From the NCBI GenBank assembly GCA_003331305.1, contig QOQB01000003.1, positions 1 through 64,000 of the forward strand: DNA of 64,000 nucleotides, read 5' to 3'. The translations under genes were made by a program, and so were the position numbers. The first letter of the stretch is position 1. Each line of letters begins with the position of its first letter. The notes below the pieces were generated by a model, which was given only the letters and a program-made list of their open reading frames with translations, had not been told where the DNA came from and did not search any database. This DNA comes from Flavobacteriales bacterium (GTDB taxonomy: Bacteria; Bacteroidota; Bacteroidia; Flavobacteriales; Flavobacteriaceae). This document shows, piece by piece, positions 53,044 through 58,082 of the stretch.

Positions 53044-55053
53044 CTATTTCGCATCTTTTAGCGATTCATCTTTGGTTGTTTTTGCTTTGGTTGTTGTGCG
53101 CTTCTTAGGGATTGCTTTCGGCTTTGGAGGGGCTGCTTCAGGCTTTTCAAACGGGCGTGCACCAAAAATTCGTTCCAAATCATCTTTGAAAATCACTTCT
53201 TTTTCTAACAAGTGTTCAGCCAGCTCTGTGAGTTTGTCTTTATGCTTTTTCAACAATTGAATGGCACGTTTGTATTCATGCTCTACGATTGAAGAAATTT
53301 CAGTATCGATTAGTTTTGCCGTTTCTTCAGAATAGGGTTTTGTAAACCCATAATCACCCTCATTTGTTTGGTAATAAGTAATGTTTCCAATTTTTTTGTT
53401 AAGCCCATAGATAGTCACCATAGCTCTGGCTTGTTGGGTAACTTTAACTAGGTCACTCAAGGCTCCTGTAGAAATTTTGTTAAAGATTATATCTTCTGCG
53501 GCACGACCACCAAGTGTGGCACACATCTCATCAAGCATTTGTTCTGTACGAACAATTTGGCGTTCCTCGGGTAAATACCAAGCTGCACCCAAGGATTGCC
53601 CACGTGGCACAATAGTAACCTTTACAAGCGGAGATGCGTACTCCAACATCCAGCTAACAGTAGCATGTCCTGCTTCGTGGAAGGCAATGGTTTTCTTTTC
53701 TTCGGGTGTAATAATTTTACTTTTCTTTTCCAGTCCGCCAACGATTCTGTCAACAGCATCTAAAAAGTCTTGGCGACCTACCTTTTTCTTGTTTTTTCTA
53801 GCGGCAATTAGTGCCGATTCATTACACACATTCGCAATATCTGCACCTGAGAAGCCAGGGGTTTGCTTTGCTAGGAAATCCACATCTAATTTTGTGTCAG
53901 ATTTTAGTGGCTTTAGGTGAACTTTAAAAATTTCTTTTCGCTCGTTTAAGTCCGGCAAGTCCACATAAATTTGACGGTCAAAACGACCAGCGCGCATTAG
54001 CGCTTTGTCTAGAACATCAGCACGATTGGTAGCAGCAATAACAATAACGTTAGTGTTTGTTCCAAAGCCATCCATTTCGGTCAGCAACTGATTAAGCGTG
54101 TTTTCACGCTCATCGTTAGACCCTGTCATATTGTTCTTGCCTCTTGCGCGGCCTATGGCATCGATTTCATCAATAAAAATAATGGCAGGAGATTTGTCTT
54201 TGGCCTGCTTAAATAAGTCGCGAACGCGGGAGGCACCCACGCCAACAAACATCTCCACAAAATCGGATCCAGATAGAGAGAAAAAAGGCACTTTTGCCTC
54301 ACCGGCAACTGCCTTTGCCAAAAGTGTTTTTCCTGTGCCTGGAGGTCCTACCAGCAATGCACCTTTTGGGATTTTTCCACCAAGCACGGTGTATTTTGAT
54401 GGGTTCTTGAGAAAATCCACGATTTCTTGAACTTCCTCTTTAGCTCCCTCAAGACCTGCAACATCTTTGAATGTGATTTTAACATCCGTTTTTTCGTCAA
54501 ATAATTTTGCTTTTGACTTTCCGATGTTAAATATTTGGGCACCACCGCCGCCTCCACCGCCAGCAGACATGCGACGCATGATAAATAACCAAATAGCAAT
54601 AATGAGAATGAGCGGTAAAAAACCAACCAAGACATCTAGCCAACGATTTTCAACCGTTTTAAACTCATAGCTAAACTTCACTCCGTTGGACTCGGCAGCT
54701 TCCAATTTCTTTTGAAACAATTCTAGGTTTCCAACTTCAAACTGATAATGTGGGCCTGCATCATTGCTGCGTCCTAATATATCTGTGCTTTTAGCTTTTT
54801 TGTGTTTGGTTTCTTGCAGTGCTAATTCGGTAAGTGTTACCTGAGCTGTGTTTTTATTCACCACCACCACACGACTAACTTCACCGTCATTTAGAAAGCG
54901 TTCAAAGCTAGATATGTTTATTTGTTGATCTTCGCTGATTCCATTTCCACCGCCAAAAAACGACATTCCCAAAAAGAATAAGACTATTGATCCGTAAAGC
55001 CAGTATGGATTTAGCGCAGGTTTTTTAGGTGGAGTTTTTTCTTTTTTAGCCAT
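53044..55053 (-). CDS. ftsH: ATP-dependent zinc metalloprotease FtsH
   Basis: [31 protein letters not shown]. Confidence 0.98.
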
Positions 55054-55055
55054 AA

Positions 55056-55424
55056 CTAATAATTAGATTCTACGAGGGTTTGTTTGGCATCGCCCCAAAG
55101 CGATTCAATGTCGTAATGTGAACGGGTTTGTTTTTGAAAAATATGCACAACTACATCGACAAAGTCCATTAATACCCACTCACTCGTTTCTTGACCCTCT
55201 ACATGCCAAGGTTTTTCACGTAGTGACTTACTTACAACTTTCTGTACCGAACTTGATATGGCACGGACTTGCGTATTGGAATTACCGGAGCATACTACAA
55301 AATATTTACACACATTGTTATCAATGTCACGTAAATCCAAAATATTGATGTCTTCGCCCTTTACCTCTTCAATACCTTCAATGATAAGCGAAAGAAGAGC
55401 ATCTGTGTTATTTTTCTTTGTCAT
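55056..55424 (-). CDS. rsfS: Ribosome silencing factor (RsfS/Iojap)
   Basis: KYFVVCSGNSNTQVRAIS, PWHVEGQETSEWVLMDFVDVVVHIF. Confidence 0.95.
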   Translation of the reverse strand: MTKKNNTDALLSLIIEGIEEVKGEDINILDLRDIDNNVCKYFVVCSGNSNTQVRAISSSVQKVVSKSLREKPWHVEGQETSEWVLMDFVDVVVHIFQKQTRSHYDIESLWGDAKQTLVESNY

Positions 55425-55481
55425 GCAAATTATGTCTCTGTAAATGTAGTCGATATTTGTGTAACTAATTTACAAAAACCT

Positions 55482-55489
55482 TAGATTTG
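55482..55489 (+). promoter_or_regulatory. Orphan -7 element in front of the birA relic
   Basis: TAGATTTG (TAnnTTTG) 3 nt before the birA-like segment begins. Confidence 0.45.
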
Positions 55490-55492
55490 TAA

Positions 55493-55622
55493 CTAATTAA
55501 TCAAACTTAGTGCCATCTGCCAATTGTATTCTAAAGAGCCCCAATTTTGATTAAAATTGAAAATAACAACTCAATATCAATAAAATAAATAGATCTTGAA
55601 GACATTTTGTCAGCATCCAAAT
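55493..55622 (+). pseudogene. birA: Decayed birA relic, two colinear fragments with internal deletion
   Basis: AAACTTAGTGCCAT (55503..55516) matches birA 57363..57376; GACATTTTGTCAGC (55601..55614) matches birA 57651..57664; flanking protein-level similarity (LIKLSAI; SISIK*..DILSASK vs SLQIKWPNDILSAGK). Confidence 0.72.
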
Positions 55623-55643
55623 TTTAAAATACAATAGCCCGAC

Positions 55644-57293
55644 ATGAAATCTACATTTAAAAAGACTTGCCATACGTTCATTTTTTTGCTTATTGGGTTT
55701 TTTTCAATCGCGCAAGTTTCAGTATCTGTTGATGAAGATTTAGCGCGGATGGGTTATATGCACCGCTTTGAAAATAACAACGGATCAAAAGGATCATACC
55801 TTGAAGGTCAAGTATGGGATAATAAAGCGGACCTTATCGCTTTAATCTCTTCCGATGGATCCCATTCCATTACGTTAAAACCCAATAGCAGTTTATACAA
55901 CTCAAATAACCCTTACTGGTCAAATGGCGCTGGAGATGGAAATAAGTGGTTGGAAGCAAGCACTTATGTTGAGTATGCCGCTGGAGCATATCCAGGTGGT
56001 CCATTATCGTTTGGTGCTAATATTAGTTCGTACACACTTGACAATCGATATACCTTAAAAGCTTTTATTAAAGAGTTTACACAACAATATACCTTAGTAA
56101 ATAGCGAGGAGATTACCATCGAATCAAGCGTCTCAGAGTTCAACATGTCGTACACGCCCTCAAGTAATGCCAATGTGATTCAATACGGTTTTATTCTTGA
56201 GGGATTAAATGCCAATCCTAATAAGGATTGGGGAGCGGTTACGATTTCCTCAACATCAAATGACAATAGCTTAGTCTACCAAGAAGTGTGGGGAGACGAG
56301 TTTAATGACAGCACTATTTATCAAGCAGGTAAGATTAACGTCATTGACGGCACTAAGTGGTTTCATCAAACTAAATTGCCCAACGGCAGGAGCTGGTATA
56401 ATAGCGAAGTGCAACATTATACGGACGAAACGGCTAATAGCTATGTGTCAGATGGAACATTAAAAATTGTCGCTAAGCGGGAAACGTATACAGATCAAGG
56501 TCAAACCAAGGAATTTACCTCAGCCAGATTAAACTCAAAATTTGCATTTACTTATGGAAAAGTTGAAGTGCGCGCAAAGCTGCCAACTGGATCAGGGACT
56601 TGGCCAGCCATTTGGATGCTTGGTAAAAATATTACTGAACCAGGGGCGTATTGGGAGCAAGAGTTTGGAACAACTTCATGGCCAGCATGTGGCGAAATTG
56701 ACATCATGGAGCATTGGGGAAAAAACCAAAACTATGTGAGCAGCGCTATGCATACTCCTTCTTCATATGGGGGCACGATTAATCATGGAGGACAAACCAT
56801 TTCTACTGCATCTTCAAAATTTCATTTATACACACTTGTTTGGACACCTGAAAAAATGGTTTTTTCTGTTGATGGAAACGTACATTATACGTACAATCCT
56901 ACTGAAAAAAATAAGGATACTTGGCCCTTTGACGCTGATCAATACCTCTTATTAAATGTTGCCATTGAACCTTCAATAGTATCTAGCTTTAAAACGTCAG
57001 CTATGGAAATAGATTATGTTCGTATTTATCAACTGGGACAGGCATTAAACTCAAAAACCATTTCAAATCAATCCTCACTTCATGCTTGGGTAAATAGCGA
57101 AGGTCAAATCAAAATTCATTCTACCCTTATGCTTGATGCTATTAGATTATACGATTTTCACGGAAGAGAGTTGATTCATCAAAGACCGTATGCTAAGCAA
57201 ATTGCAGTAGATGGAAATGCATATAGCGGGATACTTATTCTCAAAGCTGAAGCTGAAAATAAGCGTTGGATTCGTAAGATTTTAATAAATTAA
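55644..57293 (+). CDS. GH16-family secreted beta-glucanase (laminarinase-like), T9SS-type C-terminus
   Basis: GH16 catalytic ExDxxE motif GEIDIMEHWG; EVWGDEFN..W; N-terminal beta-rich accessory domain; C-terminal sorting-like domain (IRLYDFHGRELIHQ..YSGILILKAEAENKRWIRKILIN). Confidence 0.92.
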   Translation: MKSTFKKTCHTFIFLLIGFFSIAQVSVSVDEDLARMGYMHRFENNNGSKGSYLEGQVWDNKADLIALISSDGSHSITLKPNSSLYNSNNPYWSNGAGDGNKWLEASTYVEYAAGAYPGGPLSFGANISSYTLDNRYTLKAFIKEFTQQYTLVNSEEITIESSVSEFNMSYTPSSNANVIQYGFILEGLNANPNKDWGAVTISSTSNDNSLVYQEVWGDEFNDSTIYQAGKINVIDGTKWFHQTKLPNGRSWYNSEVQHYTDETANSYVSDGTLKIVAKRETYTDQGQTKEFTSARLNSKFAFTYGKVEVRAKLPTGSGTWPAIWMLGKNITEPGAYWEQEFGTTSWPACGEIDIMEHWGKNQNYVSSAMHTPSSYGGTINHGGQTISTASSKFHLYTLVWTPEKMVFSVDGNVHYTYNPTEKNKDTWPFDADQYLLLNVAIEPSIVSSFKTSAMEIDYVRIYQLGQALNSKTISNQSSLHAWVNSEGQIKIHSTLMLDAIRLYDFHGRELIHQRPYAKQIAVDGNAYSGILILKAEAENKRWIRKILIN

Positions 57294-57350
57294 AATATAT
57301 TTTAAATTTTTATATTACTGCATTGGGAATTAAGCCTGTAATATAATGCG

Positions 57351-58082
57351 ATGCTGATTATTAAACTTAGTGCCATTGACTCCACCAATACTTTTTTAAA
57401 GCAATGGGTGCAGCAGACTAAGGCACATACATCCATAGGTGTATGGGCAAAGCATCAAACTCATGGAACGGGGCGCATGGGTACCAAGTGGCTTTCAGAA
57501 AAAGACCTAAATCTGTTGTGCTCCGTATATTTGGGTGATATTTCGAACCAAAATAACGTCGTATTTGACATAAATAAGCGCGTTTGTTTGGCAATTTTAG
57601 ATACGCTGATACCACTTAACATACCTTCGCTTCAAATCAAATGGCCAAACGACATTTTGTCAGCGGGTAAAAAAATCAGCGGTATATTGGTTGAGCCTAT
57701 CCTTCGTGGAAACAAGGTTACGTCTGTGGTAATTGGGTGTGGAATTAATGTCAATCAGTTAGAGTTCCCTGATTTACCTTTTGCGTCATCAATGCAGGCT
57801 ATGACAGGACAAGAATATGCTATTGATTCTATATTTAACGATTTGGCAAATAATATTGAAAAAACAGTTCGTGCAGATACGACAGATAATGCAAGGTATC
57901 TAGACTCGTTGTACGGATTTAATAAGTCGTGTTCCTTTGAGCGATCAGACGGTTCATCGTTTTCGGCGACCATAGTTGGAGTTGCTGAAGATGGAAAATT
58001 GATAGTCAAACACAACGACGGAACTACAGCGTTTTTTGAGGAAAAAAAAATCAAGTTTAGAGCTTTTTCGCATTCCCAATAA
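57351..58082 (+). CDS. birA: Biotin--[acetyl-CoA-carboxylase] ligase
   Basis: SAIDSTNTFLK, GTGRMGTKW, LQIKWPNDILSAGKKISGILVEP, VVIGCGINVNQ. Confidence 0.95.
   Translation: MLIIKLSAIDSTNTFLKQWVQQTKAHTSIGVWAKHQTHGTGRMGTKWLSEKDLNLLCSVYLGDISNQNNVVFDINKRVCLAILDTLIPLNIPSLQIKWPNDILSAGKKISGILVEPILRGNKVTSVVIGCGINVNQLEFPDLPFASSMQAMTGQEYAIDSIFNDLANNIEKTVRADTTDNARYLDSLYGFNKSCSFERSDGSSFSATIVGVAEDGKLIVKHNDGTTAFFEEKKIKFRAFSHSQ

Follow-up and report, generated by a model that had tools for sequence, protein, structure and literature searches.

Within the 64,000-nucleotide window of the draft genome G000 (1.46 Mb), the gene rsfS is separated from birA by a gene encoding a glycoside hydrolase of family 16 (GH16), and the spacer between the minus-strand rsfS and the GH16 gene extends over positions 55425-55643. 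The identities of RsfS, GH16, and BirA given in the initial annotation were upheld by Pfam, and the coordinates of the genes and of the elements discussed below are collected in Table 1. At the far end of the locus (58057-58082), the 3' end of birA shares a 26-bp overlap with a convergent coxG-like gene, and synonymous conservation is raised in the final codons of birA. The locus was compared with that of 16 congeners, giving a genus set of 17 genomes.

Table 1. Genes and proposed regulatory elements of the rsfS-birA region of G000 (positions in the window).
Feature	Position	Strand	Basis or remark
ftsH	53044..55053	-	ORF; synteny in congeners by tblastn; presumably transcribed after rsfS in one rsfS-ftsH unit
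rsfS	55056..55424	-	Pfam PF02410, 1.2e-32; would be transcribed first from the proposed sigma-54 promoter
TAGATTTG, left over from the former -7 promoter element of birA	55482..55489	+	Now upstream of GH16
Proposed sigma-54 -24/-12 promoter of rsfS-ftsH, TGGCACTAAGTTTGAT on the minus strand	55500..55515	-	Fragment 1 of the initial annotation; matches exactly the element embedded in birA in congeners
Proposed enhancer (activator site), GACATTTTGTCA	55601..55612	strandless	Fragment 2 of the initial annotation; 12/12 identical in three spacers
GH16 glycoside hydrolase gene	55644..57293	+	PF00722, 1.8e-22; between rsfS and birA; absent there in 11 congeners
Intact birA	57351..58082	+	PF03099, 8.9e-18
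Promoter motif within birA, degenerated, TGGCACTAAGTTTAA	57361..57375	-	-12 box has lost its G
Enhancer palindrome GACATTTTGTCA within birA, codons 101-104	57651..57662	strandless	Retained; second copy besides that of the spacer

birA-like Fragments in the rsfS-GH16 Spacer

In the initial annotation, the spacer was described as holding a decayed copy of birA, represented by two colinear fragments on the same strand. Both exact 14-mers on which this description was based are present on the same strand and with their order kept, AAACTTAGTGCCAT at 55503-55516 with its birA counterpart at 57363 and GACATTTTGTCAGC at 55601-55614 with its counterpart at 57651. They also exceed what is found in shuffled AT-rich sequence: dinucleotide shuffling of the spacer, repeated 20,000 times, gave no colinear pair above 12, and a pair of 13 + 13 was reached in 0 of 20,000. 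The wider claims made for the fragments are not borne out by the alignments. The extension of the first fragment over birA codons 2-17 finds no support past the 14-mer, the best local alignment comprising 24 columns around it, and the reading of the second fragment as 'SISIK*' is likewise unsupported, with nearly no likeness to birA outside the 14-mers.

A birA pseudogene would be expected to display homology along the gene together with neutral decay; what remains here is just two 14-nt segments, both of which are constrained at the DNA level elsewhere. When the spacers of the genomes G000, G001, and G004 are aligned, conservation is confined to the rsfS-proximal ~60 nt, the two elements, and the -7 box TTTTG, which is retained as TTTTG or TTTG in G001 and G004. 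The birA scraps beside rsfS probably match a sigma-54 promoter and an enhancer for rsfS-ftsH, and are not decaying junk. As a caution, short colinear matches of pseudogene-like appearance can be preserved regulatory elements.

Ancestral Gene Order and Gain of the GH16 Gene

Eleven of the 17 genus genomes carry rsfS and birA in divergent orientation, with start codons 67-69 bp apart and no GH16 gene between them (referred to here as empty), and birA does adjoin rsfS in these relatives, as the initial annotation had supposed. The same divergence, at 58-98 bp, is found in all the family genomes fetched from outside the genus, and the empty state is therefore regarded as ancestral. In each of the 11 empty congeners (L063, L067-L075, and L077), a TAnnTTTG box precedes the birA ATG by 3-5 nt; owing to this short distance between the -7 box and the start codon, the birA mRNA of these genomes is probably leaderless or nearly so. 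The element TAGATTTG in the spacer is orthologous to this box, and its earlier assignment to the old birA promoter is supported.

The GH16 gene lies between rsfS and birA in G000, G001, and G004, and the contigs of G003 and G007, also scored as filled, end in a GH16 tail upstream of birA. Both of these contigs (L065 and L066) break at the same place inside that tail, ~130-140 bp upstream of birA, which suggests an assembly break or strain variation at the site. G010, whose contig ends inside birA, was left out of the filled/empty scoring. A concatenated tree unites the filled genomes, the empty G016, and G010 in one clade with a support of 0.999, in which G004 is the first branch of the filled clade and G016 is nested within it. 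Because G016 (L063) possesses a clean empty site despite its nesting among G000, G001, G003, G004, and G007, either a loss or a second gain of GH16 must be invoked. A single gain followed by loss in G016, perhaps via recombination between the remnant and birA, is the simplest account, and two gains are possible.

Regarding the originally proposed arrangement of a relic birA, a cargo gene, and an intact birA, one part stands: the GH16 gene came between, and DNA of the birA 5' end stayed beside rsfS, since the ancestral order is that of rsfS divergent from birA without GH16. The other part, a simple decay of the remnant, was not upheld. Campbell-type integration, tandem duplication, or another route could have led to the present arrangement, the sequences favouring none of them. 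Catalytic domains related to that of this GH16 protein occur widely in Bacteroidota, and the one in the gammaproteobacterium HTCC2207 (L191) is 71% identical to it, which makes lateral transfer of the gene between marine polysaccharide degraders plausible.

DNA-Level Constraint within birA

Within the genus, the two 5-codon windows of birA with the highest synonymous conservation are KLSAI (96%) and NDILS (95%), compared with 56% gene-wide, and these windows are exactly the two fragments found in the spacer. Across 30 empty genomes of the family, and with the two Trp codons excluded from the count, third positions conserved in at least 97% are limited to codons 4, 5, 7, and 8 and codons 100, 101, 103, and 104; the third bases of all eight are conserved at 100%, the gene mean being 0.52. 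At codon 7, the residue can be S, D, N, or H and the third base is always T, and variation within the palindrome falls on the three central bases, the arms being nearly constant. On the basis of these two features, the conservation pattern fits DNA sites rather than codons. Constraint acting on the codons or the protein alone was also considered and was rejected, as third bases are fixed where residues vary and other families retain WPND with different codons.

A broad pattern, consisting of TCAAA-N5-TGCCA followed by CGACA-N3-TGTC at the birA spacing, was searched for in 396 genomes of the order. The pair at this fixed spacing is present in 66 of 77 family genomes and in 0 of 319 genomes of other families, and a reversed control pattern gave 1 match. 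G000 itself fails the pattern, as expected from the loss of the -12 G in its own birA copy. One empty genome of the family, G032, has rpoN and the activator described below and is without both the promoter and the palindrome. In two genomes of another family, G042 and G055 (L147 and L153), TGGCA-N6-TTG is found between rsfS and birA, likewise at -71 upstream of rsfS, possibly representing an independent or an ancestral sigma-54 promoter outside birA.

Promoter-like and Palindromic Elements

Read toward rsfS, the first fragment is TGGCAC-TAAGT-TTGA, which has the -24/-12 layout of a sigma-54 promoter with TTGA replacing the consensus TTGC. The core TGGCAY-N5-TTG is invariant in the 30 empty family genomes, the last base of the -12 box being A where the consensus has C. 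An assignment of the same element as a sigma-A -7 box (TAAGTTTG, minus strand) was examined and rejected, given that the invariant bases also span TGGCA at the -24 spacing and that G001 is without TAnnTTTG at that place.

The second fragment is the palindrome GACA-TTT-TGTC. As TGACA-N3-TGTC, it occurs at six positions in G000, namely in the spacer, in birA, twice upstream of hsp20, upstream of dnaK, and upstream of miaB, the Hsp20 and HSP70 identities of these targets being assigned by Pfam. The hsp20 palindromes are directly followed by TGGTAT-GCATA-TTGC and the dnaK palindrome is followed by TGGCAT-AATGA-TTGT, both conforming to TGGYAT-N5-TTG[CT], and the DNA ahead of groES contains an imperfect palindrome and TGGCAC-AATTG-ATGC. 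In genome-wide scans, the sigma-54 pattern alone was not enriched (40 matches versus 29 for controls) and the palindrome count was not clearly above the control (9 versus 6 matches); only the placement of the palindromes appears striking, not their number.

In the genus, a sigma-A-like TACTTTTG follows the miaB palindrome at a distance of ~17 nt (L122:17175; miaB upstream regions L255-L294), and no sigma-54 promoter was seen at miaB. Across the order, most genomes carry the palindrome ahead of miaB, with variants of the form TG[ACT]CA-N3-TGTCA, unlike the birA-embedded pair, which is confined to the family.

A Candidate Activator Encoded with miaB

The gene following miaB, in the order miaB - activator - lptE - TPR - secG - groES - groEL, encodes a protein of 414 aa with an AAA+ domain (PF00158, 4.8e-68) starting from residue 13 and a Fis-type HTH (PF02954) at 372-410. 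GAFTGA can be read in its translation, and no receiver domain was detected by Pfam. An orthologue is present in 60 of 60 relatives, and rpoN (PF04552) was detected in 16 of the 17 congeners and in all 22 of the other relatives tested. The architecture corresponds to that of PspF-type activators, known from the phage-shock regulator of E. coli, which likewise combine the AAA+ sigma-54 activator domain with a Fis HTH and have no receiver. The protein differs from PspF in being encoded with miaB and groESL, in the sequence of its putative site, and in its predicted targets, which are chaperones and ftsH. This PspF-like protein is likely the activator at the palindrome, and the overlap of the site with the promoter of its own operon suggests autoregulation, as in PspF. 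A second AAA+ response regulator of G000 (L125, G000:C4:30285) lacks an HTH and carries GSFTSA where GAFTGA would be expected; its ability to act with sigma-54 has probably been lost, and a partnership with the palindrome is unlikely.

The Rearrangement as a Natural Experiment

If the sites serve rsfS-ftsH, the displacement of birA should free the birA copy from constraint and keep the constraint on the DNA beside rsfS. The promoter follows this expectation. Within birA, TGGCA-N6-TTG is intact in 30 of 31 empty family genomes and in 0 of 5 filled genomes (Fisher 1.6e-5, uncorrected for kinship). The motif in the filled birA copies has been broken by several different changes, affecting the -12 G in G000 and the -24 GG in G001, and it is more heavily changed in G003, G007, and G004; Ala8 is changed in four of these five copies. 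In the spacer, TGGCA-N6-TTG is kept in all three genomes in which it could be followed (G000, G001, and G004), at 78-94 nt from rsfS, and the palindrome is identical among the three while most of the other spacer DNA has diverged.

The enhancer within the birA copy has remained intact in four of the five filled genomes, being lost only in G004, the deepest branch. The model does not call for this persistence, and the enhancer may have a further role within birA or may be decaying slowly. Promoter and enhancer are separated by about 285 nt within birA, compared with about 100 nt in the spacer. Enhancers bound by sigma-54 activators act at variable distance by looping, and the two spacings are consistent with this property.

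Proposed Mechanism and Alternative Explanations

Based on these comparisons, it is probable that rsfS-ftsH possesses an enhancer-dependent sigma-54 stress promoter that overlaps birA codons and has been kept as a regulatory remnant in the spacer. In Flavobacteriaceae, the -24/-12 boxes of this promoter would lie antisense in the first codons of the divergent birA, and the enhancer GACA-N3-TGTC would be located ~285 nt deeper into birA, within the stretch that encodes the active-site motif NDILS. The PspF-like activator would bind the palindrome and act on RNA polymerase with sigma-54 at the promoter, stress would induce transcription of rsfS-ftsH as the putative target, and the same activator would also serve hsp20, dnaK, and groESL. 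When the GH16 gene came to separate rsfS from birA, a copy of the 5' region of birA, presumably generated by duplication, would have remained beside rsfS and eroded except for the promoter and the enhancer, and the promoter in the distant birA copy would have lost its function.

The explanation offered in the initial annotation, according to which the decaying birA copy in the spacer has no function and stems from single-crossover integration of DNA carrying birA and GH16, accommodates the exact colinear 14-mers, the empty ancestral site, and the retained birA -7 box. It is nevertheless very improbable, for the survivors in three diverged genomes are only the two segments that are DNA-constrained elsewhere, with their surroundings lost, and it is instead the birA behind GH16 in which the promoter motif has degenerated; there is no reason for a neutral relic to retain precisely these two pieces. 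The third-position constraint, the alignment of the three spacers, and the family distribution of the pair led to the rejection of such a relic. That the elements are DNA-level signals for birA itself, in the form of its own operators or mRNA signals, and not for rsfS-ftsH, is suggested by their location inside the gene and by the enhancer remaining intact in four of five birA copies parted from rsfS, but this too is highly unlikely, as the promoter-like element faces rsfS, stays within 78-94 nt of it in filled genomes, and is broken in birA wherever birA has moved away.

The sites could also be real but read by another regulator together with sigma-A, for instance a heat-shock repressor acting on GACA-N3-TGTC. 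This is considered unlikely: the -12 box TTGA in place of TTGC and the sigma-A-like element next to the miaB palindrome, where no sigma-54 promoter was seen, would conform to it, but the invariant bases and spacing match TGGCAY-N5-TTG, hsp20 and dnaK pair the same palindrome with near-consensus -24/-12 boxes, and the palindrome precedes the operon of a sigma-54 activator throughout the order. An origin of the spacer sites de novo after the GH16 insertion, rather than from birA DNA, is similarly improbable; it would be in keeping with the small amount of birA-like sequence outside the two sites, but the birA -7 box is retained upstream, the distance from promoter to rsfS is unchanged, and identity is exact over 14 bases at both sites.

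Relation to Known Systems and Significance

Intragenic sigma-54 promoters have been described in E. coli and Salmonella, some of them antisense to the host gene, and several of these sites are conserved and have been shown to drive the next gene (PMC4591121). The arrangement proposed here, a sigma-54 promoter of rsfS-ftsH embedded in birA, differs from these cases in that the divergent neighbour contains the enhancer as well as the promoter, that the synonymous sites are frozen family-wide, and that a rearrangement indicates which copy is needed. In Flavobacteriia, sigma-54 control of GroEL, GroES, IbpA, GrpE, DnaJ, and DnaK has been predicted (PMC12316311), and the main text of that study is without ftsH, rsfS, and an upstream activator site. 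A survey of the literature on a flavobacterial sigma-54 heat-shock promoter, the palindrome, and birA-ftsH yielded nothing beyond these two reports. The aspects that appear new are the palindrome as a likely activator site, rsfS-ftsH as a candidate target, the embedding of both elements in birA, with codons frozen across the family, and the rearrangement by which regulatory constraint would be separated from coding constraint.

It seems fairly probable, judging from the genome comparisons, that the proteostasis or heat-shock response of the family, comprising hsp20, dnaK, groESL, and rsfS-ftsH, operates via sigma-54 and a single PspF-like activator linked to miaB and groESL, with a promoter and a distant enhancer frozen into the N-terminal and active-site codons of birA, so that the regulation of a neighbour would dictate the codons, and even residues such as Ala8 and Ser104, of an essential enzyme. 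The locus would thereby provide a concrete cis-regulatory code for the stress regulon of a large bacterial family, naming a likely activator, its site, and rsfS-ftsH as a new target. It would also be a clear example of an essential enzyme whose codons and residues seem to be fixed by regulatory DNA and not by the function of the protein, for which a natural rearrangement serves as the control.
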